A DNA stretch of 64,000 nt, taken from positions 5,766,001 through 5,830,000 of the forward strand of contig NZ_CP107947.1 of the NCBI RefSeq assembly GCF_036059255.1, given 5' to 3'. Position numbers and translations under genes: made by a program. The notes under the pieces are model-generated. The model had not been told where the DNA came from. It did not search any database and saw only the letters and a list, made by a program, of their open reading frames with translations. Shown in pieces: positions 48,677 to 64,000 of this stretch. Position 1 is the first letter of the stretch; the number at the start of each line of letters is the position of its first letter. The DNA is from Micromonospora sp. NBC_00389 (GTDB lineage: Bacteria > Actinomycetota > Actinomycetes > Mycobacteriales > Micromonosporaceae).

Positions 48677-49597
48677 TCAGCTCGCGACCGGCGATCGAGG
48701 TGCGGTCGGGGTAGTCCGAGACGGTGTGGCCTGTGCCGCGAGGCCGATCCTCGGGTGGCCGGGCAACTGACCGAGCAGGGTGCCGGCCAGCGCGACGACC
48801 AATCCCAACACCTGCACCGGGCGCAGCGTCTGACTGAGCGCCAGCCAACCCAGAACCGCCGCGGTGATCGGGCTGAGCAGGGCGAGGAACGCCACCGAGG
48901 TCGCCGGCAGCGCGGCGATCCCGCGGAACCAGAGCCAGTACGCCAGCGCCGTGCCGACGGTGGCCAGGTATCCGTACCCGGCGAGATGGGTGCCGGTCAG
49001 GGCGGCCGGCAGTCCTTCCGCGACGAGTGCCACCGGGGCGAGCAGCAGACCACCGGCGGTGAGCTGCCACGCGGTGAACGGCAGTGCGCCGACCCCGTCC
49101 GGGCGTCCCCATCGTTTCGTCAGGACGGTGCCGGTGGCCATCGAGGCTGTACCGAACAGACCCGCCAGGATGCCCAACAGGTCGAGCTGGGCATCCGGGC
49201 GCAGGACCACGAAGGAGACGCCGAGCACCCCGAGCAGTCCAGCGCCCACCGCGATCATGGTGGGTCGGATCCGGAGCAGGGCGGCCGAGAGGCCGACCGT
49301 GAGCAGCGGGCCGGTGGCGCCGAGCACGGCCGCGACGCCGCCGGGCAGCCGGTAGGCGGCGTAGAAGAGCATCGCGAAGAACACCCCGATGTTCAGCGTG
49401 CCGAGGACCGCCGCCTTCCACCACCACGATCCGCGGGGCAGGAGGCGGGTCACCGCGAGCAGGACGAGGCCGGCCGGCAGTGCCCGTAGCGCCGCGGCCA
49501 GCAACGGCCGGTTGTCCGGTAGGAGTTCGCTGGTCACGGCATAGGTCGTGCCCCAGACGATCGGTGTGATTGCGGTGCTGACGAGCATCCGGTTCAT
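48677..49597 (-). CDS. EamA-family (drug/metabolite) transporter
   Basis: A 306-residue membrane protein with ten predicted helices in two EamA repeats: MLVSTAITPIVWGTTYAVTSELLPDNRPLLAAALRALPAGLVLL at the start, and GYLATVGTALAYWLWFRGIAALPATSVAFLALLSPITAAVLGWLAL in the second repeat, typical of RhaT/EamA exporters. It lies 38 bases downstream of the frameshifted MFS gene on the same strand, so it may share the MarR-controlled promoter. Substrate unknown (metabolite or amino acid export). Confidence 0.92.
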   Translation of the reverse strand: MNRMLVSTAITPIVWGTTYAVTSELLPDNRPLLAAALRALPAGLVLLAVTRLLPRGSWWWKAAVLGTLNIGVFFAMLFYAAYRLPGGVAAVLGATGPLLTVGLSAALLRIRPTMIAVGAGLLGVLGVSFVVLRPDAQLDLLGILAGLFGTASMATGTVLTKRWGRPDGVGALPFTAWQLTAGGLLLAPVALVAEGLPAALTGTHLAGYGYLATVGTALAYWLWFRGIAALPATSVAFLALLSPITAAVLGWLALSQTLRPVQVLGLVVALAGTLLGQLPGHPRIGLAAQATPSRTTPTAPRSPVAS

Positions 49598-49635
49598 CGC
49601 GGTATCCCCTCACAGGCGGCAGCAGTTGTGGCTCA

Positions 49636-50950
49636 CTAGGCGGCAGCGGTCACGGGGACCTGGGCGGGCCGGAGGTGACCCGGCTCGGTGCCGCTCGGCT
49701 CGACGGGAACGCCGGGGCGGTTTTGATTGACGGTCGGGGCTTCGGAGGTGTTGAGCGCCGCCGCTGGTAGCCGCCGTTCGAGCCGGATGATCAGCGCGGC
49801 ACCGGCTAGCACGGATCCGGTAAGGAACAGCCAGGGCAGCCGGCCGTCGACCACCAGCAGCGCGGTGAACAGCGCAGGCGCGATGGTGGCCGCCAGCGAC
49901 CAGGACAGTTGGTAGGCCGCCAGGTATCGACCCCGGGCGTCCTCCGGCGCGGCGGCGATCGCCAAGGTGCTCGCGGCCGGGCTGTGCAGCAGTTCGCCGC
50001 CGGTATAGAGGACCGTGGTACCGACCAGCACGACGAGCAGTACGGCGGTGCTGCCGGGGCGGGCGGTGCCGAGCAGGATGAATCCGAGGAACGCCAGGGC
50101 GAACACGGCCGCGCCGGTCGCGGCCACCCGGGTCCGCCGTCCCATCCGGACCGCGAGCCGGGTCACCGGCACGCCGGCGAGCGCGCAGAGCGCGGTGTTG
50201 ACCGCGAACAGCGCGCCGACGGTGGCCGCCGGGGGCGTGCAGGACGGTGATCGCGTACGCCGGCAGCAGCAACGACAACGCCGAGTAGCCGAGCGCGATG
50301 AGGAAGTTCGCCCCGGTCAGGCCGAGGAACGGCCGGTCGGCGAGCACCTCGCGGTAGCCGATCCGGGCGCGCGAGCGGATCATCGGCATCCGGCGGGGCA
50401 CCCGACGAGCGAACAGCGCCGCGACCAGGAAGCTTGCCGCGTTGAGCCAGGCGGTGACGGTGAACCCCGCGTCGCCGGCCAGCCCGATGATCAGTGAGGC
50501 GATCAGCCCCCCGGCGCCGAGACCGCCGTTGCGCAGGCTGCGGGCCAGGGCGTTGAGGCGGTCACGGTCCGCTCCCTCGGCGATGTCGCCGATGGTCGCC
50601 TGCTGGATTGCCGGGAAGGCCCGGTCGCCGGCGGCGGTGAACAATGCGACGGCCGCGAACGCTGGCAGGGTGACCGCGAGCGGGTACGCGGCAAAGCCCA
50701 GGCCCCGCACGGTGTACCCGACCAACTGCATCCGGCGCGCGCCGAACCGGTCGACGGCGGCGCCCGCCAACGGCAGCAACGCCATGCCCGCGAGTCCGGC
50801 GACGGTCAGCACCGCGCCGATGGCAGTGAGCGGGAGGCCGGTGACCCTCTGAAAGAAGACGAGCGAGAACGGGACGTACATCCCGGAGCCCAGCGCGTCG
50901 ATCGTCATGCCGGTGATGAGGGCCCGCTCGCCGGGGTTTCGTCTGGTCAT
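49636..50950 (-). pseudogene. MFS transporter with a single-base frameshift
   Basis: The first 240 or so residues from ATG 50950 form an MFS N-terminal half (LITGMTIDALGSGMYVPFSLVFFQRVTGLPLTAIG..., LLLPAYAITVLHAP). Homology then continues in another frame (AATVGALFAVNTALCALAGVPVTRLAVRMGRR...) to 49636. Removing one base from the five-G run at 50231-50235 joins the halves exactly. The full length of 1315 bases is one more than a multiple of three. This is either a recent inactivation, phase variation, or a sequencing error in a homopolymer. The gene is divergent from marR with a palindrome between. Confidence 0.88.
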
Positions 50951-50984
50951 CGTGCCGCCTCCCGTTAGCTTGCAGATAGCTTAG

Positions 50985-51001
50985 GACTAAGAAACTTAGT
51001 C
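50985..51001. promoter_or_regulatory. Palindromic MarR operator candidate
   Basis: GACTAAG (50985-50991) and CTTAGTC (50995-51001) are perfect inverted arms around AAA, in an AT-rich divergent gap 35 bases from the MFS start and 42 from the marR start. A nearby TTAGCTTGCAGATAGCTTA repeat may be part of the same control region. Confidence 0.72.
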
Positions 51002-51042
51002 AGGAGCATCTGAGCTTGTATGAGGTGTGACACAATCGGACC

Positions 51043-51549
51043 ATGCGGCAGAAGAGAGCGACGGCAACCGGTGACGGGGTGGACGTGATCGTCGGTCAGT
51101 GGGCGGCCGAGCGCCCCGAGCTTGAGACCCTCCCGATGGAGGTCTTCGGCCGGATCTACCGGATCTCCCGCCTGATGGGAGACCGGGTCGAGCGGGCGTA
51201 CGCGCCGAGCGGCATCGGACGCGGTGAGTTCGACGTGCTCGCCACCCTGCGCCGCGCCGGCGAGCCGTACACGCTGTCGCCGAGCCAGTTGTCGGCGGCC
51301 CTGATGCTCACCACCGGCGGCATGACCGGCCGGTTGGACAAGCTGGAGCGGGCCGAGCTGGTGCAGCGGATTCCCGATCCGGCCGACCGGCGTGCGCTGC
51401 GTGCCCGGTTGACCACCAAGGGTCGACAGGTGGTGGACGAGGCGCTCACCGCCGGGCTCGCCGAGCAGGCGGCGGCACTGAACCAGCTACCGGCCGCGCA
51501 GCGTGAGCAACTCGCAGGACTACTCCGTACGCTGCTCGCCGCCTGCTGA
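51043..51549 (+). CDS. MarR-family transcriptional regulator
   Basis: A 168-residue winged-helix regulator: FGRIYRISRLMGDRVERAYAPSGIGRGEFDVLATLRRAGEPYTLSPSQLSAALMLTTGGMTGRLDKLERAELVQRIPDPADRRALRARLTTKGRQVVDEAL. The DxRR motif at the wing is present. It resembles the actinobacterial MarR group with the LSPSQLS recognition helix. It is divergent from an MFS gene (and the EamA gene beyond), with a palindrome in the gap, so it probably represses itself and the efflux genes until an inducer binds. Confidence 0.92.
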   Translation: MRQKRATATGDGVDVIVGQWAAERPELETLPMEVFGRIYRISRLMGDRVERAYAPSGIGRGEFDVLATLRRAGEPYTLSPSQLSAALMLTTGGMTGRLDKLERAELVQRIPDPADRRALRARLTTKGRQVVDEALTAGLAEQAAALNQLPAAQREQLAGLLRTLLAAC

Positions 51550-51561
51550 ATCGCACCACTG

Positions 51562-51589
51562 CGGCGTGGCGTGGCGTGGCGTGGCGTGG
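51562..51589. repeat. GGCGT pentanucleotide tandem repeat
   Basis: Five exact copies of GGCGT followed by GGC, 13 bases after the marR stop. A pentamer repeat in a noncoding position can vary by slippage. Confidence 0.85.
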
Positions 51590-51601
51590 CCGCTCCGCCG
51601 G

Positions 51602-52087
51602 TCACCCTGTCGTAGCGGGGCCAGGGTCGCACAGTGCGTCGACACGCTGATGCCAAGCGCTTCCCTCAACCGCGACGGTATAGCTGATCTCGTGGGTTCG
51701 CTGGTCCGCGGTCTGGACCGAGAAGCGCATCGGCAGAGGATCGGGCTCGGCGATCTCGCACTCAACCGTCACCCGGAGATCGATCACCCCTGTGCCGCCT
51801 GGATCCAACAACTGCGGCTGGCCAGCGTCGCGCACCAGAACGCCGGACTCCTGCGCTCCCACAACACGAGCGGTAATCGGCGCATGACCAGCATTGATCA
51901 CTATCAGCTGGGCGTCCAGGTCCGCGGTTCCGTTGCCTCGATCGCCCCCGTTGCTCCCGCCGGCCATGGCCACAAGTGCGACCGTGGCTGACTGCGCCCG
52001 CTCATCGCGACGGTCCTGCAGCTTGGCAACACCGACGCCGCCAATCGCCACTCCGAGCGCGAAGGCGGCGACGAGGTGTACGGCCAC
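51602..52087 (-). CDS. Membrane-anchored hypothetical protein
   Basis: A 161-residue protein with one N-terminal transmembrane segment (LVAAFALGVAIGGVGVA, residues about 5-22) and an extracytoplasmic beta-rich domain (LIVINAGHAPITARVVGAQESGVLVRDAGQPQLLDPGGTGVIDLRVTVECEIAEPDPLPMRFSVQTAD). It starts at GTG 52087; the frame is open about 25 codons further upstream without an ATG or GTG. I do not recognise the family. A cell-surface or periplasm-like role is inferred from topology. Confidence 0.65.
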   Translation of the reverse strand: MAVHLVAAFALGVAIGGVGVAKLQDRRDERAQSATVALVAMAGGSNGGDRGNGTADLDAQLIVINAGHAPITARVVGAQESGVLVRDAGQPQLLDPGGTGVIDLRVTVECEIAEPDPLPMRFSVQTADQRTHEISYTVAVEGSAWHQRVDALCDPGPATTG

Positions 52088-52270
52088 GCGTCGTCCAGAC
52101 GGTACGCGCTCGCGCGGGCTCTCGTCCGACGGCGGTTGCTCGCCGGCACGGCGCAGTAAGCCCCGTCAGTCATTGCCGGATCCCGGAACTCTGCGGTTCA
52201 TCGGCGTACTGAAGCCGCTCGCACTGCGGCACCGTTCACCAGCGACGCTACCTGTCCCCGCGTGTCCACA

Positions 52271-52741
52271 TCAGCCGTCGTCCCGCCCGGAACCCCACCG
52301 GTCGAGTTCGCCCCGAACGGCGGCTGCACCGGCCGGCACCACCTGACTCGCGGTGGTGGAGACGGCTTGCTGCATCTCGTCGGCCAGCCAGGCCGAGCCG
52401 CCTCCGGCCGCCCGCAGCTGCTGCAGGCCGGCCCGTCCCAGCACAACGGCGGCCACGAGGTAGCCGCCGGTGAGGCCCGCGGTAGCCAGCCGGCGGGGCA
52501 GAAAGGTCTCCAGCATGCGCAGCGCGGTCGCCGAAGCTGCGCCGGCTCCCAGGACGAGACATCCCCCGGCGGTCGCGAGCAGCGCCAGCCCCACTCCGGT
52601 CGGACGAGCCACCCTCATCAACTGGCTGCGTACCTCCCGGACCTCCTCACGCACCACCTCGGCCACGTCCGCGGCCAGGCGATCTGTCGCACCGACCGGC
52701 CTTTCGGCTCCTCGGGACCGTTCCGCCGCCGGGTCACTCAT
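52271..52741 (-). CDS. Putative holin-like / phage holin superfamily III membrane protein
   Basis: A 156-residue protein with two transmembrane helices (GVGLALLATAGGCLVLGAGAASATAL and LATAGLTGGYLVAAVVLGRAGLQQL) between a charged N-terminal helix (ATDRLAADVAEVVREEVREVRSQL) and a C-terminal amphipathic part. This matches the actinobacterial phage-holin-family (DUF1469-like) proteins encoded in chromosomes, usually not within prophages. No other phage genes are near. Function is unproven. Confidence 0.7.
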   Translation of the reverse strand: MSDPAAERSRGAERPVGATDRLAADVAEVVREEVREVRSQLMRVARPTGVGLALLATAGGCLVLGAGAASATALRMLETFLPRRLATAGLTGGYLVAAVVLGRAGLQQLRAAGGGSAWLADEMQQAVSTTASQVVPAGAAAVRGELDRWGSGRDDG

Positions 52742-52864
52742 GGTCAGGTCACCCCTTCCGCGTCCGCTGCGGGCAGCCGCTTACCCACGAACGTCACCGC
52801 CATGCCTGTCCAGGGCTGTTCCGGGCAGGGACGAACAATGCGTTCCGGCCGTCGCCGGTCGAGG

Positions 52865-53110
52865 CTAGGTGTCGGATGCCCGGATCGTGCGGAGCAGGTA
52901 GCCGGGCAGAATAAGTTCCTGGCCGCCTGTCTTTGCGGCCACCTCGGTCTCCTCGATCTGCGTGTCGAACCATTCCGGCTCGGGGAATCCCGTCCGCAGC
53001 AACTCCTCAGTCACGCCCCAGCCGTGGCCCGCCTTCAGTGACACCGCCAGGACGAAGACGGTCGCGCCCGGAGCGGCGAGGCCCGCCAGTAACGCGAGGT
53101 ATCCGTCCAT
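52865..53110 (-). pseudogene. C-terminal fragment of a class I SAM-dependent methyltransferase
   Basis: An 81-residue frame (LALLAGLAAPGATVFVLAVSLKAGHGWGVTEELLRTGFPEPEWFDTQIEETEVAAKTGGQELILPGYLLRTIRAS) corresponds to the last third of small actinobacterial methyltransferases (the strand PGATVFVL and the final substrate-cap region). The SAM-binding GxGxG part is missing. Upstream, the frame runs through sequence without recognisable homology. Most likely a remnant. Confidence 0.6.
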
Positions 53111-53235
53111 CTCGCCACCGCCGCGCCGGTGGAGGACACCAAGACCACCTGCCCTGCCGCCCCGGTGTCCGCCACCCGCCCGGCGGGCACGTCACGCCAC
53201 ACGTCCGGCCTCCTGCCCGGTTGACGATCTGGGCG

Positions 53236-53892
53236 TCACATCCCGGTCGGCTCGGGCGCGTCGCCCGCCGGATGCGCCAGGACGAACCGCTCCACGACGG
53301 CGCCACTGACCGAGGCGCAGAACTGCCGGTACCCGGCGTGCGCGCCCCAGTGCGACAGGGCGATCGGACGGCCGGCCGGGAACGCCCCGTACCCGGGGTC
53401 CCACGGCGCCACCACGAACCTGCCCCCGTACCGGTCGCCACCGAGCTTTCGGGCCAGCGCCCGCAGCGCCTCGATCTGGTCGTGAGCGAGCGGTTCGACG
53501 TACCAGAGGATGGTGTACCCGTGTTCGAGGTTGTGGACCAACGTCTCGACAGGCGGACGGTCCCGGGCGGTGTAGAACCGGCGCACGGTCGGGGCCGGCA
53601 CCACGAAGTGTGGCCCGGACGACGGCGGGACCAGGTCGTACTGGATCCGGGTGACGTGCGGCTCGGCGGTGCCGGGGCCGACGTGGACGCCAGCGCCGCG
53701 GATCGGGTCGGTCAACTCCGGGTCGCATCCGGCCCGGTCGGCGGCGACCCCGATCGCGGCGGCAGGCCGGCGGGCGACCGGGTCGGCGTACGCGCGAAGG
53801 AACGGGATGATCGCCACCACGAGCAGGACGACGCCGAATGCGACGGCCACCGCGGCGATCCGCGGCCCGTACCCGGGGCGCGCCTCAGCCAC
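53236..53892 (-). CDS. DUF3105 family membrane-anchored protein, in the lanthipeptide operon
   Basis: A 218-residue protein. One N-terminal transmembrane helix (IAAVAVAFGVVLLVVAIIPFL) is followed by the extracytoplasmic DUF3105 domain: PPSSGPHFVVPAPTVRRFYTARDRPPVETLVHNLEHGYTILWYVEPL, with the characteristic histidines (VHNLEHG). GTG 53892 overlaps the lanD stop by 8 bases, so it is translated with the cluster. The family is uncharacterised. Its attachment to the lan genes suggests a role in immunity, maturation outside the cell, or mere co-expression. Confidence 0.82.
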   Translation of the reverse strand: MAEARPGYGPRIAAVAVAFGVVLLVVAIIPFLRAYADPVARRPAAAIGVAADRAGCDPELTDPIRGAGVHVGPGTAEPHVTRIQYDLVPPSSGPHFVVPAPTVRRFYTARDRPPVETLVHNLEHGYTILWYVEPLAHDQIEALRALARKLGGDRYGGRFVVAPWDPGYGAFPAGRPIALSHWGAHAGYRQFCASVSGAVVERFVLAHPAGDAPEPTGM

Positions 53893-54517
53893 GACCTTCT
53901 CCCCCGCCGCGCAGGTGGACGGCGGCCCACTCCAGTACCACCTCGACGGCCGGCATCCCCCGGCCGGCGAGGGTGCCGGTGCTCAGGGCGAGCACGGGTA
54001 CGGGCGGCACCACGCCGTACCCGTCGGCGCGCAACTGCGCCACGTTGCGCTGCACCGCCGGGCGCTGCCACATCGCCGAGTTCATCGACGGCACCAGCAC
54101 GACGGGAGCGGCGGCGGCCAGCACGCAGGTGCCGACCAGATTGTCGGCGATCCCCAGAGCCGCCTTGGCCAGGGTGTTGGCGGTGGCCGGCATGACGAGC
54201 ACCAGATCCGCCCACGCCGACAGGGCCAGGTGCGGAACCTCCGTCATCGCCTCCTCGTCGGTGAGGGCCGGGTGTCCGGTCAGCAGAGCGAACGAACGGG
54301 CCGGGACGAAGCGGGCCGCGGCGGCAGTGAGCACGACCCGGACGTCGAGCCCCAACGCGTGTCGCATCACCATGATCGACTGGGGCAGGGTCAGGACGTC
54401 CGCGGAGCCACAGGCGGCGACGAGGACCCGCCGCGCCGGGAACGCCTTCGGGTCGACGTCGGCGGACGCGGCGGGGCGGTCCGGCGCTTCGCCGGCGGTC
54501 ACGGTACGGGTATCCAC
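53885..54517 (-). CDS. lanD: LanD-type flavoprotein cysteine decarboxylase
   Basis: A 210-residue HFCD-family flavoprotein (EpiD/MrsD and Dfp relatives). It shows the FMN-binding start RVLVAACGSADVLTLPQS, VPHLALSAWADLVLVMPATANTLAKAALGIADNLVG with the catalytic-type His and the PATANT motif, and PSMNSAMWQRPAVQRN, the PxMNxxMW motif. LanD oxidatively decarboxylates the C-terminal Cys of a lantibiotic precursor, leading to an aminovinyl-(methyl)cysteine ring. GTG 54517 has AGGAGGCGACCC upstream, and the gene overlaps the lanT end by 19 bases. The LanA here ends in Cys, as required. Confidence 0.9.
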   Translation of the reverse strand: MDTRTVTAGEAPDRPAASADVDPKAFPARRVLVAACGSADVLTLPQSIMVMRHALGLDVRVVLTAAAARFVPARSFALLTGHPALTDEEAMTEVPHLALSAWADLVLVMPATANTLAKAALGIADNLVGTCVLAAAAPVVLVPSMNSAMWQRPAVQRNVAQLRADGYGVVPPVPVLALSTGTLAGRGMPAVEVVLEWAAVHLRGGGEGRG

Positions 54518-56724
54518 GGGTCGCCTCCTGAACGGGCGGGTTCGTCGTCGGTCAACTGACACCGGACCAGGTCGGCGTAGACGCCCCCGGCATGCAGCAG
54601 GTCGTCGTGCCGCCCGCGCTCCACGATTCGGCCTGCGGCGACGACGAGGATCTGGTCGGCGTTACGGACGGTGCTCAGGCGGTGGGCCACCACGATCCGG
54701 GTGCAGCGCATCGCCGAGATGGCCTGGTCGACGCGCCGCTCGGTGGCCACGTCGAGGTGGCTGGTCGCCTCGTCGAGCAGGAGCACGGCGGGCTGCCCCG
54801 CCACGGCCCGCGCGATGGACAGCCGCTGCCGCTGCCCGCCGGAGAGGGCCTGGCCCCGCTCGGCGACCTGGGTGTCGTACCCCATCGGCATCGCCGCGAT
54901 GTCCTGGTCGATCGCGGCGACCTCGGCGGCCGCCCGGATCGCCGGCATGCCGACGCCCGGGTGCACGAGGCTGATGTTGCGCCGGATGGAATCCCGGAAC
55001 AGGTAGCTCTCCTGCAGCACCACACCGAACTGACGGCGCAGCGCGGTCGGGTCGATCCGCGACAGCGGCACCCCGTCGAAGAGGATCTCCCCGCCGGTGG
55101 GCCGGTAGAGGCCGGTCAGCAGCATGGCCAGTGTGCTCTTGCCGCTGCCCGACGGACCCACCACGGCGACCTTCTCTCCCGGCGCGACGTCGAAGGAGAC
55201 GTCCCGCAACACCGGCGCGGCGCCGCCGTCGTAGCGGAAGCTCAGGTCGCGGACACTGATCCGGCCGGTGAGCCGGGGCGCGGGCAGGTCGGGGTCCCCG
55301 GCCGGTTCGGGCTGGGCGGCGAAGACATCGCGCAGGCGTTGCAGGTGCGACACGACCGACTGGAGGACCTGGGCGCTGGCCACCAGGGAGGCGAGCGGGA
55401 TGAGCGCGGACAGCGCCAGCGCCTGCAGGCCCAGGGTCTGGCCGAGGCCAGCGCCGTCGAACAGTCGACCGGTGCCGAGCCACAGCAGCGCCAGTGGCCC
55501 GGCGAGCTGGACGCTCGCGGTGATGTTCGCGACCGTTGCGGAGAGCCGGTTCTGGGCGACGTCGGCGTCCAGTGCCGTGGTGTAGCGGCGCAGCCAGCCG
55601 TCGAACACCTGCCGCTCGGCACCCATCGACTTGACGGTCGCGATGCCCGACAGCGCCTCCATCAGCGCGCTCTCCGCGTCAGCCTGCACGGTCAGGTGGC
55701 GCTGGTTCAACCGCAGCAGCCGGCCGTTGACCACCGCGACGGCCACCACCTGGGTGACGCCGATCGCGGCGGCGAGTCCGGCGAAGGCGAGGTCCTTGGC
55801 GAACAGCACACCGAAGTACGCGATCACCAGCACGCCGTCGATCACCGCGGTCAGCACCTGGGTGGTGACCAGTTCGCGCAGCAGGATGCTGCTGGACAGC
55901 CGCTGCATCAGGTCACCGCTGGCCCGCTGCTGGAAGAAGGCGTACGGCAGGCGCAGCAGATGCCGGAACAGTCGGGTCATCAGCGCGGCGTCCACCTTCG
56001 CCTGCAGCGTGACCAGGAGCCGGGACCGCAGGTAGGCCACACCGAACTGGGTGAGCACCAGTGCCGCGATGCCCAGCGCCAGGTACGGCATGAGGGCGGT
56101 CTCCCGGGCCGGCATGATCTGGTCGAAGGTGACCGTGGTGGCCAGGGGCAGTGCCAGTCCCAGCGCCTGCAGCACGAGCGAGACGCTGAACGCGGCTCCC
56201 AGTCGGGGCAGGAAGGGTCGCAGCAGCGGGTGAGCGCGCCGCCACCTGGCCAGCGGACCGGGCCGGGTGGGGGGCGGCTCGGGTGCGGACTGCGGGTCGT
56301 GGGTGAAGGTCAGCACCGTTCCGCTGAAGCCGGCGGCGAACTCGGCCGGGGTGAGCAGCCGACGCCCGAGCGCCGGGTCGACGAGCCGGAACCCTCTCGG
56401 ACCGACGTGTTCCACCACGACGAAGTGGGCGTCCTCCCAGTGCGCGATGGCCGGCAGGGGCAGTGCCCCGACCTGACCGGCGTCGGCCCGGAAAGCCCGG
56501 CCGCGCAACCCGAACCGCGGAGCCGCGGCCAGCAGCGCCCGCGCGGTGACCCCGTCACGGCCGACGTCCAGCCCTTCCCGCACCCGGGCCAGCGAGGCGC
56601 GTACGCCGTGCCGGCGGGAGACCATGGCCAGGCAGGCGGCGCCGCAGTCAGCGTCGGTCATCTGCATCACCAGCGGCACCCGCCGCCGGCCCGGCCACCC
56701 CGGGACGACGGTCAGGCGGCGCAC
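54499..56724 (-). CDS. lanT: Peptidase C39-ABC transporter for lantibiotic export (LanT)
   Basis: A 741-residue bifunctional transporter. Its parts are an N-terminal C39 protease domain (Cys27 in TDADCGAACLAMVSRRHGV, His in HWEDAHFVVVEHV, Asp in LVDPALG), a six-helix ABC membrane domain (about 165-460), and a C-terminal ATPase. The ATPase has Walker A GPSGSGKST, signature LSGGQRQR, Walker B VLLLDEATSHLD and the switch His in VAHRLST. It removes the leader at the double glycine and exports the peptide. GTG 56724 overlaps the lanM stop by 13 bases, so the two are co-translated. Confidence 0.95.
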   Translation of the reverse strand: MRRLTVVPGWPGRRRVPLVMQMTDADCGAACLAMVSRRHGVRASLARVREGLDVGRDGVTARALLAAAPRFGLRGRAFRADAGQVGALPLPAIAHWEDAHFVVVEHVGPRGFRLVDPALGRRLLTPAEFAAGFSGTVLTFTHDPQSAPEPPPTRPGPLARWRRAHPLLRPFLPRLGAAFSVSLVLQALGLALPLATTVTFDQIMPARETALMPYLALGIAALVLTQFGVAYLRSRLLVTLQAKVDAALMTRLFRHLLRLPYAFFQQRASGDLMQRLSSSILLRELVTTQVLTAVIDGVLVIAYFGVLFAKDLAFAGLAAAIGVTQVVAVAVVNGRLLRLNQRHLTVQADAESALMEALSGIATVKSMGAERQVFDGWLRRYTTALDADVAQNRLSATVANITASVQLAGPLALLWLGTGRLFDGAGLGQTLGLQALALSALIPLASLVASAQVLQSVVSHLQRLRDVFAAQPEPAGDPDLPAPRLTGRISVRDLSFRYDGGAAPVLRDVSFDVAPGEKVAVVGPSGSGKSTLAMLLTGLYRPTGGEILFDGVPLSRIDPTALRRQFGVVLQESYLFRDSIRRNISLVHPGVGMPAIRAAAEVAAIDQDIAAMPMGYDTQVAERGQALSGGQRQRLSIARAVAGQPAVLLLDEATSHLDVATERRVDQAISAMRCTRIVVAHRLSTVRNADQILVVAAGRIVERGRHDDLLHAGGVYADLVRCQLTDDEPARSGGDPWIPVP

Positions 56725-59700
56725 TGCCGCCCCCGATCGCCGAGCCTGCTGGTGGTGATGCGGTCGCGCACCGGCGCATCCGTCGGGGGCGCCAGCAGGA
56801 GCACCGACGGCACTCGGCCGGGTGCGGCCAGCCGCAGCAGGGCAAGTCCGATCCCCGACAGGCCGGTCATCAGCTCCGGTGAGGCGAGCGCCGTCGGGTT
56901 CGCGCAGCGCCAGCCGCCGGCGAGACCGTCGCGCAGCACCGCTGCGGCGGGTGCCGCCACCTGCTGCGGGGCGGCCGCCAGCAGCAGGTCGAGATTGCCG
57001 AGGTCGCCATGGCACAACGAGTGGTTGCGACCGAAGCCGGTGGCCAGGGTGGTGGCGACCGCCGTGGAGATCTCCGCGTCCAGGACCTCGTCGGTGCCGA
57101 GGGCGTCGCGGACGAGCAGCCGCGACAGGCCGATCCCCGGGGCGCCGTGGCACCAGGTCACCGTGCTCTGCCCGGGGCGGCGCAGGTCGGCCCAGTTCGC
57201 CAGCGCCGGGCGGAACAGGCTGCGGTCGTAGGCCAGGGCGCGGGCAGCGGCGTCGGCGTACCCGGGCTCGCCGGTCGCCTGCCGGGCCTGGGCCAACGCG
57301 GCGGCGAGCCCGGCCGAACCGTGGGACAGCCCGCCCAGGGGGACGCCGGTCGCCGCTCCGGCGGGGTGCGAGTAGCGGTCGGCGGCGACGCACAGTCGTC
57401 GGGCAGCGGCGCGCACGGCCGGCCCGACCCGCTCGGGATCCAGGCCGGCGCGGCACACTGCGAGGACGGCACCGGCGTACCCGTCGACCAGATCGGGGGC
57501 CTGGTCGGTGGCGGCCAGCGTGACGATCCGCGCGAGTGCCACGTCGACGACCGGCGTGAACCGGCGGGTCTGCCACAGCGCTCCGAGGTGGCCGAAGGTG
57601 TAGAGCAGCCCCGCCCAGCCGGTGAACGCGCCGATCCGGTCGCCGGGGATCCGGCGGTCGAGGACGCGGGCGGCGAGCCCGGCCGCCGCGCGATCGGCGA
57701 GGTCGGTGAAGCGCTGCTCACCGCTCAGCCGTCCGGCGTGGGCCAGGAAGAGTGCCACCCCGGCGACGCCGTCGTAGAGGTGCGGACCGAACGGCGCTGG
57801 CGCCCACCGACCCGGGTCCGCGGCGCTGGGCGTGAGACCGAACCAGGTCGGCTCGGCACCCGGGCCGGCGAGCCCGGCCACGAGGGCCGCCACCTCGGTC
57901 GCGGCGGCCAGGTACGCCGCCGGCGGAGGCGTCGGTGCCGGTGGGACGTCCGCGAGCCGCCAGCGCACCCGTGCATGAGGTGCGTCGGTGGCGTCCACCC
58001 GGGAGGCGAAGGCGGCCTCGATCAGCCAGCGTTGCCGGGCCAGGTCGGCCGCGTCGAGCCGGGCGACCCGACGACGCGCCTCAGCGAGGCCCGACCGGGC
58101 CAGCAGTCCGGGCAGTCGCCGTCCCCGACCGGTCCACAGGTCCCGGGAGTCCACCCTGGTGGTGAACATCGGCACGTCACGGCGCGCCAACTCGGCCCGT
58201 TCCTCGACGACGGTGGCCGCCAGCAGCGGCAGTTCGGCCACCCCCGACCAGAGCCAGTCGTGCAGGCGTTCGGTGTCGAGGCCGTCCTGCAGCGCGTCGG
58301 TGTGCAGGGCGGCGTCCCGCAGCCGCAGGTAGGTGCGGGTGGGGCGGAGCACGACGCGGATCTCGTCGGCCGAGAACGCGGTGACCGGCCCGTCCGGGGC
58401 CAGCAGTTCGTCGCGTACGTCGGCAAGGAGGAGGTACATCGCGTCGAAGCCGGCCAGCACCTGCGGCAGATGCGGGGCGACGTCGGTCACCGGCGGAGCG
58501 GCGGCGGGGTCGTGGGAGGCGGCCTCCTCATGGTGGTGGCCGGGTGCGCACAGCCGCATCTCGTCGGTCCCCTCGGCCTGCCAGGCCGAGCAGTTGCAGC
58601 CGTCGCCGGCCGGTCCCGCCGCCTCGTCGGCGCGTGGCAACAGGCCGACGGCGAGCACCGAGTCGGCGATCGCGTCTCCACCACGGGCACTCGCGGCCCG
58701 GACGACCGACGGGGTGAACACGGTCTCCAGGTCCACCAGGACGGGATGTTCGCCGTGGGCGATCACGTTTTCCTGGTGGCAGTCGGTGGCGCCAACGGCC
58801 TGCAGCAGGGCCAGCAACGCGCCGACCCGGCGGGCGAAGTCGCGGTGGCCGGCCGGTGTGCTGGGGGTCCGCAGGTCGACGTACTCGGCCCAGCCGTGCT
58901 CGCCGCGCGGCAGGACGGTGAAGGTGTGCAGGTCGGCGCCGCGCTCGTTGAGCCAGGCCAGCAGGTCCTGGAACCGTGCCTCGACGTCGACGGGGCGGGG
59001 CTTGTAGACCAGCCGCAGGCCGGTGTCGAAGGTGGCCACCAGCACCCTGCGACCGTCGCGGTGCGGGTCGCCGGTCTCCTGGACCTCGACCAGGCGACCG
59101 ACCGGGGCACCGGCGTGGAAGATCGCGCCGAGGGTTGGCGCGTCGCTGCTGAGCCGCTCCAGGAACTCGATCGTGCGCTCCGCCCAGTTGCGGGTCAGCT
59201 CGTACGCCTGACGTGCCAGGACCGGGTACTCGGCCAGCAGGGTCAGGGCGGCCTCGGGCGAGCGATACCGGCGGAAGAAGGCCGCGAAGCGCTCCTGCGG
59301 CGTCTCGCCGGGCGACGTGCCGCGCAGCCGGTCAATGTTGAGTTCCAGAACGACGGCCCGGCTGAGGACCACCACCAACTCGTCGAGCAGGCCGGTCAGG
59401 CCCAGCCGGTCGGCGTCGGCGGGCAGCAGGTCGGGGGCGTCGTCGGCGAGCTGGCGGGTCCGTCGCGCCACCCGGGCGCGGGCCTGCGCGACCACTGGCG
59501 CCACCAGGGCGAGGCAGGCGTCCAGCGGGCGGCCGGGCAGCAGCTGGGGTTCGATCTCCCCGCCCATCGGCTGGCCGTAGCAGGCCAGCAGGCGGCGGAT
59601 CCACTCCGGGGGCCGGCCGAGGCGGGCGGCGAGCCGTTCCGGCGTCTCGTCCAGGAGCGCGAGGAGCACCTGCTCGTCGACACCCTCCGCCGCCAGCCGG

Positions 59701-59894
59701 CGTCGCCAGTCCTCATCGTCGGTGAACGCGCCGCCGGTGCGCCACCGGGACAGCCGCCACCGCGCCCGCTCGCCGGGCGGCGTCTCCGTCGACACGGGCG
59801 CGGCCAGCCGTTCCGTGATGGTCAGCGCGGCCAGGAGGCGCTCCTCGGCGCGGGCGGTCGGGTCGTCGTCGGCGCGGTGCGGTGGTACGGACAT
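56712..59894 (-). CDS. lanM: Class II lanthionine synthetase LanM
   Basis: A 1060-residue bifunctional enzyme. The N-terminal dehydratase domain (about 150-640) shows kinase-like motifs: TFDTGLRLVYKPRPVDVEARF, GATDCHQENVIAHGEHPVLVDLETVF and GTDEMRL. The C-terminal LanC cyclase domain (about 720-1050) binds zinc through C915 (TWCHGAPG) and C961-H962 (HSLCHGDLGN). It dehydrates Thr in LanA and joins Cys to form methyllanthionine. ATG 59894 has GGGAGC upstream; a longer open frame above it overlaps lanA and is rejected. A short Cys/His-rich insertion (CNCSAWQ ... APGHHHEE) in the dehydratase part is unusual. Confidence 0.96.
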   Translation of the reverse strand: MSVPPHRADDDPTARAEERLLAALTITERLAAPVSTETPPGERARWRLSRWRTGGAFTDDEDWRRRLAAEGVDEQVLLALLDETPERLAARLGRPPEWIRRLLACYGQPMGGEIEPQLLPGRPLDACLALVAPVVAQARARVARRTRQLADDAPDLLPADADRLGLTGLLDELVVVLSRAVVLELNIDRLRGTSPGETPQERFAAFFRRYRSPEAALTLLAEYPVLARQAYELTRNWAERTIEFLERLSSDAPTLGAIFHAGAPVGRLVEVQETGDPHRDGRRVLVATFDTGLRLVYKPRPVDVEARFQDLLAWLNERGADLHTFTVLPRGEHGWAEYVDLRTPSTPAGHRDFARRVGALLALLQAVGATDCHQENVIAHGEHPVLVDLETVFTPSVVRAASARGGDAIADSVLAVGLLPRADEAAGPAGDGCNCSAWQAEGTDEMRLCAPGHHHEEAASHDPAAAPPVTDVAPHLPQVLAGFDAMYLLLADVRDELLAPDGPVTAFSADEIRVVLRPTRTYLRLRDAALHTDALQDGLDTERLHDWLWSGVAELPLLAATVVEERAELARRDVPMFTTRVDSRDLWTGRGRRLPGLLARSGLAEARRRVARLDAADLARQRWLIEAAFASRVDATDAPHARVRWRLADVPPAPTPPPAAYLAAATEVAALVAGLAGPGAEPTWFGLTPSAADPGRWAPAPFGPHLYDGVAGVALFLAHAGRLSGEQRFTDLADRAAAGLAARVLDRRIPGDRIGAFTGWAGLLYTFGHLGALWQTRRFTPVVDVALARIVTLAATDQAPDLVDGYAGAVLAVCRAGLDPERVGPAVRAAARRLCVAADRYSHPAGAATGVPLGGLSHGSAGLAAALAQARQATGEPGYADAAARALAYDRSLFRPALANWADLRRPGQSTVTWCHGAPGIGLSRLLVRDALGTDEVLDAEISTAVATTLATGFGRNHSLCHGDLGNLDLLLAAAPQQVAAPAAAVLRDGLAGGWRCANPTALASPELMTGLSGIGLALLRLAAPGRVPSVLLLAPPTDAPVRDRITTSRLGDRGRQCAA

Positions 59895-59929
59895 TCGGTG
59901 CTCCCGTGGCGGTGGATTCGGGCGGGACG

Positions 59930-59958
59930 ACGGGGTCCGGGCCAGGCCCGGACCCCGT
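59930..59958 (-). terminator. Strong stem-loop between lanA and lanM (partial terminator or processing site)
   Basis: A perfect 14-bp inverted repeat ACGGGGTCCGGGCC (59930-59943) with 59945-59958, one base apart, so the hairpin must open to a small loop. It lies 27 bases after the lanA stop and 36 bases before lanM. In many lantibiotic operons such a structure lets abundant short lanA mRNA form while limiting lanM. Confidence 0.78.
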
Positions 59959-59985
59959 GCGGACCCGAGGGTCGGTCGTTCGAAA

Positions 59986-60168
59986 TCAGCAGACGCAGTG
60001 GCAGCAGGCCGTGGTGTGGCCGGTGGTCGCGGCGGCACCGCCGGCCACCGTCTCCAGCTGGTCACGGTCCAGCTCGACCACGCCGGCCGGGTGGCTCTCC
60101 ACGGCCTCGGCCGAGGCGGCGCGGCGATACTCGTCCTTCCAGCTGCTGACGATGTCGGTGATGGACAT
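59986..60168 (-). CDS. lanA: Lanthipeptide precursor LanA
   Basis: A 60-residue precursor with a strong ribosome binding site (AAAGGAG, start ATG 60168). The leader (residues 1-44) is helical and acidic: MSITDIVSSWKDEYRRAA ... ELDRDQLETVAGG, with the double-glycine site for the C39 protease. The predicted core is AAATTGHTTACCHCVC (16 residues): four Thr, four Cys, no Ser, with all Thr before all Cys and a C-terminal Cys. The last feature and LanD predict an aminovinyl-methylcysteine ring, as in mersacidin-type peptides, which also end in a CxC. Ring topology is not predictable by eye. I see no second precursor. Confidence 0.9.
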   Translation of the reverse strand: MSITDIVSSWKDEYRRAASAEAVESHPAGVVELDRDQLETVAGGAAATTGHTTACCHCVC

Positions 60169-60489
60169 TCAGGGCTCCTTTCACGACGACCGCCGGCCTG
60201 CCCGGCGGTCGCTGGCAGAAACAGCCTCCGTGCCAGGGGGGTGCCGGCACATGAGTAGCCGGTACCTCACCCCCGACCGGCGCTGTCACGGTCGTGACAA
60301 CCGAATCGGCGGATCGGGGCGTCAGGTGTGCAGGCGTGTCTGGAAGGCGACGGCACCACCCGTCAGGGTGTGTGAGGGTGAGGCCCGCGCCACCCAGACC
60401 GCTGTGCGCACGACCGGCTGTGAGAGCGGGTCGAGACGGAGATGGCGACCGGGCCCGGGGCGGGAACCCGGCCGGGTTGAAGGGGTTCC
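60169..60489. promoter_or_regulatory. Divergent control region of the lan operon and the LAL regulator
   Basis: 321 bases hold the promoters of lanA (reverse) and the LAL gene (forward). A perfect palindrome TGTCACGGTCGTGACA lies at 60284-60299. A second imperfect stem pairs GGGGGTG (60237-60243) with CACCCCC (60268-60274), continued by CCGG/CCGG, and contains GTGCCGGCAC. These are the best candidates for activator or repressor binding. No ORF is supported here. Confidence 0.55.
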
Positions 60490-63126
60490 GTGTCTGCACC
60501 AGGAGGCTTCGTCGACGGAGACGCCGGATGGCCCTTCGTTGGCCGGATGCGCGAGCGGGACCGGGCGGTCGAGGCCCTCACCGCGCCGGCGGGTCAGGGG
60601 GTCCTGCTCACCGGCGATGCCGGGGTGGGAAAGAGCCGGCTGTTGGAGGAGGTGCTGGATCACGCGCTACGACGGCAACATGTCGTACTGCGGGTCACCG
60701 CCACGCCAGGCTGGCGCGGCGTACCGTTCGGCGTGCTCGCCAGCCGCCTGCCGCAGCCGTCGGACGCGAGCGTGGCCGACGTCTTCCGGGACGCGGAGCG
60801 CCGCCTGCGCGAGGTCGCGGCGGGCCGGGGCGTGGTGGTCGGCGTGGACGACCTCAACTGGCTGGACGACGCGTCCGCCGCACTGCTCGAACGTCTCGTG
60901 GCGGGGGGCACCGTGCGAGTGGTGGCGAGCGTGCGCGGCGCCGCCCTGGACGCCGCGCCGGTGGCGGCGCTACGACGGTCCCGAGCCGTCGACCGGGTCC
61001 ACGTGCCACCGCTGAACCCGGACGAGACCGCCCTGCTGGTCCGCGAAGGGCTCGGTGGCCCGGTCGACGGTCTGACCCTCGGCGCGCTGTGGCGGATCAG
61101 TCAGGGCAACCCGCTCTTCCTGCGTGAGGCGGTGCGGTGTGGGCTGCGCGACGGCGGCCTGGTCCAGCGCGACGGGATGTGGACGTGGCCGGCCGAGTCA
61201 CTGTGTCCCACTCATCTGGCCGACCTCATCGAGCAGACCCTCGGCACGCTCACCCCGGAGGAGGCCGAGGCGCTGCAGTACGTCGCTCATGCCGAACCGG
61301 CGCCACTGGCCCTGATCGAGCGGACGGTGGACCCGCTCGTCGCGGAACGGCTCGAGGAACGGGGCCTGATCCGCCTGGTCCGCCACGATGCGGCGGTGCT
61401 GGTGCAGACCGGCCACCCGCTGTACGCCGAGGTGGTCCGCAACCGCACCGGGGCGCTGCGGGCCCGCCGGCTGCGCCGGACCCTGGCCGAGGCACTCGCC
61501 GCGGTGGACGGCGGCACTGACGACCGGGCACGGATCGCGGCCTGGCGCTGCGAGGCGGACCTGCCGGTCAACGCGGACGACCTGCTGGTGGCGTCGGAGT
61601 ACGCGCTACGCCGGCACGACGCGGTGCTGGCCGAACGGCTGGGCCGCCGAATCGACTCCGCGCGCGGCGACTGGCAGGTGGGTCGAGCACTGGTGGCGCA
61701 GGGGCGCAGCGACGAAGCGGACGGGTACCTGGCCCGCGCGGCGGCCGACCTCACCGACCCGCGGGACCGCGCGGAGGCGACGGCGCTGCGGGCCTTGAAC
61801 ATGTACTGGGGAGGTCGACGGCCCGACCGTGCCCGTGCGGTGATCGACGCGGGCCGCCGCGAGCTGCCCACCGAGGCACTTTCCGGGCTGCTCGCCGCAG
61901 AGGTGGGGGTCGCGGCGTTCGGCGGCGACGCGGGCGGTGCCCGGGCGTCCATGGCGCGGTTGGCCGCCGATCGGCCCCGGGACCCCCTGCTGGCGACGGC
62001 CGTCGCGGCGCTGCTCCCGTACCTGCTGCTGTTCAGCGGGCAGCCGGGACGGGCGGTGCGGATGTTCGACACCGGCGACGTCGACATCCCGGAGACCTGG
62101 CCGACGATGCGGGCCGCGACGCAGGCCTGCCACGTGCAGTCCCTGCTGTTGTCCGGACGGCTGCACGAGGCCGAACGACTGGCTCAGTGCTACTACCAGG
62201 ACGCGGTGGCCCGGGGCGTCGCGGACGCGGTCGGGCTGCTCGCCTTCTCCCGGGGCAAGTGTGCCTATCACGCCGGGCAGATGCGCCGGTCGATGCGCTG
62301 GCTGCACGAGGCGCGCACCCTCGCCGCCAACACCCTGTTCCCGATCCGGGACTACGTGCTGTCGGCCAACGCCTACGTGGCGGCGCAGTTGGGTGAGCTG
62401 GCCGAGAGCAGACGACTGCTGCGGCAGCTCATCGACGACCGTGCCGACGGCGACGGGAACTCCGGCGGCCTGGTGGCCATCGACGCCGAGCTGACCACGG
62501 CCTGGCTGACCGCCGCCGAGGGACGGCCGGCCACGGCCACCGCCATGCTGCGCGAGCTGCACGGGCGGGCTGAGCAGGCGACGACGGTCACGGTCGAGTG
62601 CCTGCACCTGCTCTCCCGCCTGGAGCCCAGCGTCGCGACCGCTGAGCAACTGGCCAAGGCCACGGCCGACTGTGACAGTCCGCTGTTCGAACTGTGGTCC
62701 GACTACGCCCACGCGCTCGCCGGCGACGACCCGGCGGCGCTGGAACGGGTCGGCACCGCGCTGGAGGCCAGTGGATACCTGACGCTCGGCTTGGAGGCGG
62801 TGGTCGCCGCCGAGGCGGCGTGCGGGCGCCGCGGCGACCAACGCCGGGCGAACCTGCTGGCCCGTCGGGCGGATCTGCTACGGGAACGGTGCGACGGATA
62901 CTGGCCGCCCCTGAGCCCTCGGCCAACGGACCGGGACGGGCTGACTCCGCGGGAACGGCAGATCTGCGAACTGGCCTCGACCGGGCACGACAACGCGGCG
63001 ATCGCGGCGGAGTTGGTGTTGTCGGTGCGGACCGTGGAGAACCATCTTCAGCGGGCGTACGTCAAGCTCGGCGTGCGGGGCCGGAACGGACTGACCAAGG
63101 CGATCGACGCACGGCAGGCCGGTTGA
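60490..63126 (+). CDS. Large ATP-binding LuxR-family (LAL) regulator
   Basis: An 878-residue LAL regulator. The N-terminal AAA/NACHT-like ATPase has Walker A GDAGVGKS (42-49) and Walker B VVVGVDDLNWLDDASAALLERL near residue 115. A long helical TPR-like middle part follows, then a C-terminal LuxR helix-turn-helix (about 815-875: LTPRERQICELASTGHDNAAIAAELVLSVRTVENHLQRAYVKLGVRGRNGL). GTG 60490 has GAAGGGG upstream. It is divergent from lanA, the usual place for a pathway-specific activator in actinomycete biosynthetic clusters. The signal it senses is unknown. Confidence 0.93.
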   Translation: MSAPGGFVDGDAGWPFVGRMRERDRAVEALTAPAGQGVLLTGDAGVGKSRLLEEVLDHALRRQHVVLRVTATPGWRGVPFGVLASRLPQPSDASVADVFRDAERRLREVAAGRGVVVGVDDLNWLDDASAALLERLVAGGTVRVVASVRGAALDAAPVAALRRSRAVDRVHVPPLNPDETALLVREGLGGPVDGLTLGALWRISQGNPLFLREAVRCGLRDGGLVQRDGMWTWPAESLCPTHLADLIEQTLGTLTPEEAEALQYVAHAEPAPLALIERTVDPLVAERLEERGLIRLVRHDAAVLVQTGHPLYAEVVRNRTGALRARRLRRTLAEALAAVDGGTDDRARIAAWRCEADLPVNADDLLVASEYALRRHDAVLAERLGRRIDSARGDWQVGRALVAQGRSDEADGYLARAAADLTDPRDRAEATALRALNMYWGGRRPDRARAVIDAGRRELPTEALSGLLAAEVGVAAFGGDAGGARASMARLAADRPRDPLLATAVAALLPYLLLFSGQPGRAVRMFDTGDVDIPETWPTMRAATQACHVQSLLLSGRLHEAERLAQCYYQDAVARGVADAVGLLAFSRGKCAYHAGQMRRSMRWLHEARTLAANTLFPIRDYVLSANAYVAAQLGELAESRRLLRQLIDDRADGDGNSGGLVAIDAELTTAWLTAAEGRPATATAMLRELHGRAEQATTVTVECLHLLSRLEPSVATAEQLAKATADCDSPLFELWSDYAHALAGDDPAALERVGTALEASGYLTLGLEAVVAAEAACGRRGDQRRANLLARRADLLRERCDGYWPPLSPRPTDRDGLTPRERQICELASTGHDNAAIAAELVLSVRTVENHLQRAYVKLGVRGRNGLTKAIDARQAG

Positions 63127-63164
63127 GGGCGGCTGCGACCGCACGGCACCCGTCCAGCATCCGG

Positions 63165-63188
63165 TGACCCGGCGCCATGGCCGGGTCA
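63165..63188. terminator. Stem-loop between convergent LAL and membrane protein genes
   Basis: TGACCCGGC (63165-63173) pairs with GCCGGGTCA (63180-63188) around a 6-base loop; it lies between two convergent gene ends and could terminate both. Confidence 0.65.
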
Positions 63189-63214
63189 GCCGGTGCGCCG
63201 GGTCAGCCGGTGCG
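63181..63214. repeat. 17-bp direct tandem repeat at a gene end
   Basis: CCGGGTCAGCCGGTGCG occurs twice in perfect tandem (63181-63197, 63198-63214). The second copy includes the stop and last codons of the membrane protein gene, suggesting a recent duplication that also copied the gene's 3' end. Confidence 0.85.
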
Positions 63215-63646
63215 CCGGGAGCGGGCCAGAGCCAGCCCACCGAGGACCATGGCGATCAGCCCCACCACCAGGGCCACGTAGGCCCCGCCTCGCCCGTTGC
63301 CGGTGCCGATGCCGCTGTCGGAGGTGGCCACCACCAGCCCGCCGAGGGCCAGGCCGATCAGCCCTCCGGCCAGGGCCATGGTGGCCCCGAGGAGCCCGTT
63401 GCTGGTGCCGATACGACCGGTGGGGCGGGCCAGCGCCAGCCCACCGATGATCGCGCCGGCCAGCCCCAGCACGGCGGCCACGCTTGCCCCGAGTCGCCCG
63501 GCGCTCATGGCGTAGACATCGGCGGCGGTCGGCTGGGCCGAGACGTTCGCTACCGCCGGTGCGGCGAACCCGAAACCTCCGAGCAGGACGGCTCCGGCCA
63601 CGGTGAGTACACGTCGGACTGACGTCAGGGCTCCCGGTGGGTTCAT
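63203..63646 (-). CDS. Repetitive Gly/Ala-rich membrane protein (DUF6223-like)
   Basis: A 147-residue protein with a signal peptide (VLTVAGAVLLGGFGFAAPAVA) followed by three related hydrophobic units of the form GLxGaxIGGLALARptGRIGTsNG (near residues 60, 88 and 122). It ends VLGGLALARSRRTG. This internal triplication matches DUF6223-type actinomycete proteins of unknown function. ATG 63646 follows GGAGAGAAC. It is convergent with the lanthipeptide regulator gene; whether it belongs to the cluster, for instance as immunity, is not shown by the sequence. Confidence 0.75.
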   Translation of the reverse strand: MNPPGALTSVRRVLTVAGAVLLGGFGFAAPAVANVSAQPTAADVYAMSAGRLGASVAAVLGLAGAIIGGLALARPTGRIGTSNGLLGATMALAGGLIGLALGGLVVATSDSGIGTGNGRGGAYVALVVGLIAMVLGGLALARSRRTG

Positions 63647-63875
63647 GTTCTCTCCAAATTCGTGCGGCTGCCTGCCGAGGTTTCGGATGCCGCCTGATCA
63701 TGTCGCCGGGCGCACCGCCAGTCGTCCAGCAGATGCAGGCAATTCGCGCTGCCGCCGATGACGCACCCGACTACTGCGGACGCCGCAGGCGCCGGGAAGG
63801 TACTGCGTTCGCGGTAGACAGCCGCTCGTCCGTGAGCAGGAGTCGCCAGCAGCGACATCGGACTAAGGTGCGGCC

Positions 63876-64000
63876 ATGAGCACAGGACGGTCCGGCGATC
63901 GGGCCGCTGTCACCGATTGGGCGATCGCCGTTTGCGTGGCAGCGGTGCTGGTGGTCGCCGGGCTGTCCGAGAACCACTCCACCACGGACCTTGACCTACT
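63876..64000 (+). CDS. Membrane protein, N-terminal 41 codons only (runs off the right edge)
   Basis: ATG 63876 opens a frame that stays open to the window end. A short charged start (MSTGRSGDRAAVTDW) is followed by one clear hydrophobic segment (AIAVCVAAVLVVAGL). The pattern is that of the first transmembrane helix of a sensor histidine kinase of the NarX/DesK type, but too little is visible to assign it. Confidence 0.5.
   Translation, partial: MSTGRSGDRAAVTDWAIAVCVAAVLVVAGLSENHSTTDLDL

Follow-up and report, generated by a model that had tools for sequence, protein, structure and literature searches.

A six-gene class II lanthipeptide cluster of Micromonospora with a predicted aminovinyl-methylcysteine product and an invariant Cys/His set

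What does the compact lanthipeptide cluster of Micromonospora sp. NBC_00389 make, and which part of its product is worth following? The cluster lies at positions 53236-63126 of a 64,000-nucleotide stretch (the window; NZ_CP107947.1, 5,766,001 to 5,830,000), itself within a single 7.87-Mb contig, and all positions below are counted in the window. A preliminary description had read here a class II cluster with a Cys-ended LanA precursor and a decarboxylase-type LanD, and this much stands; its placing of self-protection elsewhere is not required, and its loss of up to four waters does not hold as a family property. It missed that one Thr, four Cys and two His of the LanA core are invariant, which changes the reading of the family. 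We propose, with a probability of about 0.6, that this is a self-contained class II lanthipeptide cluster whose product would carry a C-terminal aminovinyl-methylcysteine (AviMeCys), with spare Cys and His residues engaged in disulfides or on a metal ion and the DUF3105 protein protecting the producer or handling the peptide.

The core of the precursor

The precursor gene is small:
59986..60168, reverse strand: LanA precursor, 60 residues; NCBIfam TIGR03898 at 30.3 bits (cut-off 23.5)

The leader ends in ...LETVAGG, and cleavage after the Gly-Gly would release a predicted 16-residue core, AAATTGHTTACCHCVC. This core is identical in all eight close Micromonospora clusters, the window's included; three of its 16 codons vary among them, all synonymously only, and in the leader the variation changes the amino acid at 14 of 44 codons and is silent at 10 more. 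When 5.8 billion proteins were searched with a profile, 73 matched at E <= 0.1, and 12 of these have HTxxCCHCx(1-4)C at their end. With sequences from the loci added, an alignment of 12 LanA rows holds nine distinct cores, whose only common pattern is H-T-x-x-C-C-H-C-x(1-4)-C, with H51, T52, C55, C56, H57, C58 and C60 invariant and the positions between and after them variable. Every one of the nine cores ends in Cys, as had been described for the window. The 12 rows were picked for the motif, so that the family definition is partly circular, with 61 of the 73 proteins found lacking it. Two members (P0018 and P0019) have kept the core motif in spite of a much altered leader (42–43% identity overall). 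These two and P0011–P0015 come from protein records only, and the core of P0012 was seen within a cluster at loci L062 and L071. Invariant histidines together with surplus cysteines are, to our knowledge, unusual for lanthipeptides.

How many rings could such cores hold? The nine contain 4, 2, 2, 3, 2, 2, 4, 3 and 3 Ser/Thr residues, against four Cys in each, so that Ser/Thr are fewer than Cys in seven of nine. Four cores offer two Ser/Thr for four Cys, leaving at least two Cys without a partner (the Catellatospora core, AAIDGHTSMCCHCVC, allows two dehydrations at most), and three further cores leave at least one. A loss of up to four waters, as first suggested, does fit the window core with its 4 Thr and 4 Cys, but not the seven cores with two or three Ser/Thr; since these residues vary in number and a single Thr is conserved throughout, the ring count is not a property of the family. 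At L060 (10080-10256) and L061 (10030-10206) a single Thr precedes the first Cys, and the core closes with Ser-Pro-Cys.

The mersacidin cluster of Bacillus includes MrsA, MrsM, MrsT and MrsD, and shares with the window cluster a class II LanM, the mersacidin-type leader, a leader-peptidase exporter, an MrsD-like Cys decarboxylase and a C-x-C core end. Could the product then be an ordinary tetracyclic lantibiotic, in which the four Thr pair with the four Cys (three methyllanthionines and AviMeCys), the histidines bind the target and DUF3105 confers immunity? The four Thr and four Cys of the window core, its mersacidin/lichenicidin-family leader (above the cut-off of the family model) and the MrsD-like LanD all agree with this. 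However, seven of the nine cores built on the same invariant residues are short of Ser/Thr for four thioethers, and both His are invariant. In addition, the mersacidin lipid II motif, given as TxTxEC in PMC7268733, is missing from all nine cores. A tetracyclic lantibiotic of this kind seems to us rather unlikely. The window cluster also differs from that of mersacidin in its shorter core and in its DUF3105 protein and LAL-type (LuxR, large ATP-binding) regulator.

A lookup of the precursor, as the preliminary description had advised, led to family records. These NCBI records (from Micromonospora, for example M. globbae, and Catellatospora) bear only the general name of mersacidin/lichenicidin family type 2 lantibiotic, and among the material searched no product or core motif is described for them; no paper on these cores was found in a literature search that covered few subscription journals or preprints. 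Eight other Micromonospora genomes (L012–L022) encode two larger, adjacent, Cys-rich precursors of the mersacidin family, with ends such as TCGGTTCGTCQTQSTCGLCTA and CNGTCAAFTAGCCG, which we regard as a separate, two-peptide-like family.

The six genes as a unit

Around lanA lie the remaining features of the cluster:
56712..59894, reverse strand: LanM, class II lanthionine synthetase, 1060 residues, start ATG 59894; TIGR03897 at 689 bits (cut-off 304)
54499..56724 (about), reverse strand: LanT, exporter with C39 leader peptidase (PF03412, PF00664, PF00005), start GTG 56724 or 56679
53885..54517, reverse strand: LanD, predicted flavin-dependent Cys decarboxylase, 210 residues from GTG 54517; Pfam Flavoprotein at 94.7 bits
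53236..53892, reverse strand: DUF3105 protein, 218 residues; PF11303 at 64.1 bits
60490..63126, forward strand: divergent LAL-type regulator with AAA_16 and GerE domains
59930..59958, reverse strand: 13-bp hairpin in the LanA–LanM gap, perhaps an attenuator or a stem for processing
60252..60269, no strand: near-palindrome TGAGGTACCGGCTACTCA between LAL and LanA, possible operator or promoter part

Translation and family searches thus recovered all of the genes first listed, lanA, lanM, lanT, lanD and DUF3105 with the divergent LAL gene. Family search found no LanFEG transporter among the six, in line with the initial reading, and the LanC-like model has one match in the whole genome. Start codons of LanM, LanT and LanD were picked by hand, and that of LanD is preceded by AGGAGG. 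Overlaps had been described at every junction past lanM: those of LanT/LanD (19 nt, given the GTG 54517 start) and LanD/DUF3105 (8 nt) are there, and that of LanM/LanT (13 nt) exists only if LanT starts at GTG 56724 and not at 56679.

Of 160 Micromonospora genomes searched, 10, counting that of the window, have a LanA match (identity at least 85% in eight and 63–66% in two). In all ten, lanA is flanked by the LAL gene and lanM, and in nine of ten LanT, LanD and DUF3105 follow in the same order; in the tenth (genome G099, locus L059) the contig stops inside LanM. Two Catellatospora-type genomes of the same family carry all six genes, and the order holds down to about 50% LanM identity, the level found there. 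All 12 clusters, that of the window among them, have an LAL relative at the same position, and LanD and DUF3105 are present in each of the 11 whose contig extends that far. The frame of DUF3105 is split at L057 and those of LanM and LAL at L054, through sequencing error or decay.

Beyond these relatives, a search at family level gave matches in 35 of 354 genomes (cores were read for the returned loci, the stronger matches), and among 396 genomes sampled across the phylum, 395 of them other than the window's, G453 alone showed a match, and a weak one. Loci L078 and L079 have relatives of LanM and LanT but different cores, and showed no match to LanD or DUF3105. In a blastn comparison (E <= 1e-5) of the outside DNA (49500-51600, 51501-53260 and 63100-64000) with ten relative loci, a single 29-bp match appeared, at the DUF3105 end; with the flanking DNA otherwise unmatched, the six genes look like the unit. 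Because they recur in identical order in other genomes, the cluster is real and not a chance run. Its borders are correct.

Seven proteins from the flanks within the window were scanned; none fell in a metal-specific family, two had no match, and MFS or EamA transporters account for three. Immediately past the downstream end of the cluster, a small open frame (52865-53110) without a Pfam match resembles, on inspection, the C-terminal part of a methyltransferase-type gene, possibly insertion debris, and a DUF6223 protein (63203-63646, 108 bits) lies just past the LAL gene.

Two non-coding elements may contribute to control. The gap of 91 nt between lanA and lanM contains the hairpin, and a stem of at least 11 bp stands at the centre of the minimum-energy fold after lanA in all nine loci folded (three others were left out), with a sequence that differs between lineages; energy z-scores against shuffles run from -0.02 to -5.12 and are -3 or lower in four of nine. 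The near-palindrome falls in a conserved block of the LAL–lanA spacer (eight aligned intergenic regions, all from close Micromonospora).

Modifying enzymes and the C-terminal cysteine

Are the enzymes fit to make such a peptide? LanM, with LicM2 and CylM among its relatives, combines a dehydratase (PF13575) with a LanC-like cyclase (PF05147), exceeds the curated cut-off of its family model, and scores 52.4 bits with the class III model (cut-off 575). The dehydratase motifs and the zinc-site Cys-Cys-His are all in place in the LanMs of the window and nine other clusters of the family (L054, with its split frame, and the truncated L059 were left out). These ten LanMs also have in common a C-x-C-x-x-W motif in the dehydratase part (window residues ~433-439), where the outgroup LanMs of L078 and L079 have a longer loop and lack the motif.

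The Cys, His and Asp of the LanT C39 peptidase are all in place in the alignment, so the leader would be removed without an additional protease. The remark that no extra leader protease is present was thus right as to content, and none is needed.

The best solved matches of LanD are 7cfu (127 bits), presumably the thioviridamide-type decarboxylase TvaF, and mersacidin MrsD (95 bits); its His, PATAN and PxMNxxMW motifs align with both. This bears out the earlier assignment to the Cys-decarboxylase kind. Might LanD nevertheless not act on LanA, being a leftover or serving another substrate, with the C-terminal Cys still carboxylated? Its top-scoring model is CoaBC, at 124.4 bits below the cut-off of 219.7, and the CypD model gives 15.8 bits, far below 215. 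Against such idleness, both best solved matches are Cys decarboxylases, LanD is retained with motifs intact at about 65–70% identity in the four most distant clusters, and nine of nine cores end in Cys. We consider an idle LanD very improbable.

The LanD flavoprotein family, with 7cfu as the best solved match, is shared with thioviridamide-type and class Va systems, while the window cluster would dehydrate by LanM and has no LanX or kinase/lyase pair. Class Va AviCys systems are described in PMC12291118 as having a LanK/LanY/LanX set and no LanC domain; here a LanM with a LanC-like domain is present and the Pfam matches of the six genes include no kinase-like family. As the motifs of LanM, LanT C39 and LanD are all kept, these sequences are best read as coding for a class II lanthipeptide whose C-terminal Cys is decarboxylated to Avi(Me)Cys.

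The role of DUF3105, possible metal binding and a proposed scheme

What is the role of the DUF3105 protein then? A structure model (predicted local distance difference test score, pLDDT, 91.5) gives it an N-terminal helix at residues 9-36, a likely membrane anchor, and by fold search its C-terminal residues ~104-208 may be somewhat like thioredoxin; by sequence, no solved relative came out better than E 0.52. H70, H95, H120, E123 and H124 are invariant in a 49-row alignment; H70 is not invariant in a second alignment, of 26 rows. No paper naming DUF3105 was found in the literature search. Self-protection need not lie elsewhere, as had been supposed from the missing transporter: this protein, with its putative anchor, sits in the conserved unit and is the likeliest factor for self-protection or handling of the peptide. 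We also considered DUF3105 as a general lanthipeptide gene and rejected this, as the window LanM, LanT and LanD have no match in 36 other DUF3105 loci.

All 30 loci fetched for a DUF3105 paralogue found throughout the genus have a DUF305 gene next to it (L080–L109; DUF305 was confirmed by Pfam on L080 only). For the cluster-like DUF3105 proteins of other actinobacteria, the closest ones, a tblastn search with Micromonospora DUF305 found a relative in none of 29 loci of ~3.5 kb; in 16 of these, read by eye, the neighbours include what looks like a sugar-nucleotidyltransferase-like protein (nine loci) or an F420-ligase-like protein (five). Since the DUF305 pairing holds for the genus-wide paralogue and not for the cluster-like DUF3105 elsewhere, copper is a lead only.

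Could the Cys/His set nevertheless be the working part of a secreted copper- or zinc-binding lanthipeptide? Two His and four Cys are invariant in nine cores, at least two Cys have no Ser/Thr partner in four of them, and the paralogue stands beside DUF305 at every locus fetched. According to PMC4335983, CopM, a protein with DUF305 domains, binds Cu(I), but CopM lacks Cys, and the authors attribute the binding to Met and His. The cluster also lacks a metal-related gene, and the other actinobacterial loci lack the DUF305 relative. We regard this explanation as unlikely, and a version in which an AviMeCys-capped class II metallo-lanthipeptide binds Cu or Zn extracellularly through its remaining Cys and His, with DUF3105 as a dedicated membrane-anchored partner, as slightly more doubtful still. 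Noursin, a class III lanthipeptide of Streptomyces noursei, offers a precedent for a lanthipeptide in which His matters, binding copper through a His crosslink (PMC10206099, as far as the available part describes it). It is, however, no relative of the window cluster: the same part of that source gives it LanKC, labionin with histidinobutyrine, a class III leader and no LanD among the named genes, and the window LanM stays far below the class III cut-off.

Returning to the self-contained cluster with an AviMeCys product, we envisage the following scheme. Under the LAL regulator, LanA would be produced in excess over the enzymes through the hairpin after lanA, acting as an attenuator. LanM would dehydrate core Thr residues, always that of the 'HT' pair, and at least one methyllanthionine would be closed; LanD would oxidatively decarboxylate the C-terminal Cys, and the resulting enethiol would add to a dehydrobutyrine to give AviMeCys. 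LanT would then cleave after GG and export the peptide, in which some thiols and the two invariant His may form disulfides or hold a metal ion, and DUF3105, membrane-anchored and outward-facing, may shield the producer or handle the exported peptide. The simplest scheme common to the family would combine a thioether formed by the invariant Thr with an Avi(Me)Cys at the C-terminus, the remaining thiols forming a disulfide or binding a metal. Disulfide or metal binding is suggested by the spare Cys and the invariant His; metal binding as such is speculative.

Several points weigh against this scheme. The product is so far a prediction from the genes, and the cluster has no dedicated LanX-type AviCys cyclase; we know of no settled ring-closing enzyme for AviMeCys in LanM systems. 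In the L060 and L061 cores the invariant Thr is joined by just one other Ser/Thr, a Ser two positions ahead of the last Cys. A usual AviCys ring is awkward there unless it is formed with the invariant Thr and spans 11 residues; with the Ser so close to the last Cys, the invariant Thr would be the likelier AviMeCys partner. In one of nine loci the hairpin does not outdo shuffled sequences, and in three others it is weak. As to metal, the regulator belongs to no metal-sensor family, no known metal gene is found among the six, and the histidines could serve enzyme or target recognition instead.

The cluster is small, well bounded and recurrent, and its core is short, so that AviMeCys formation in a LanM system becomes testable with few genes. 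With its invariant His and excess Cys, the core allows a role in metal binding or disulfides to be tested concretely and cheaply, and DUF3105 is placed for the first time in a genetic context where a candidate substrate can be named. It is this Cys/His set, rather than the presence of LanD, that is the part worth following.

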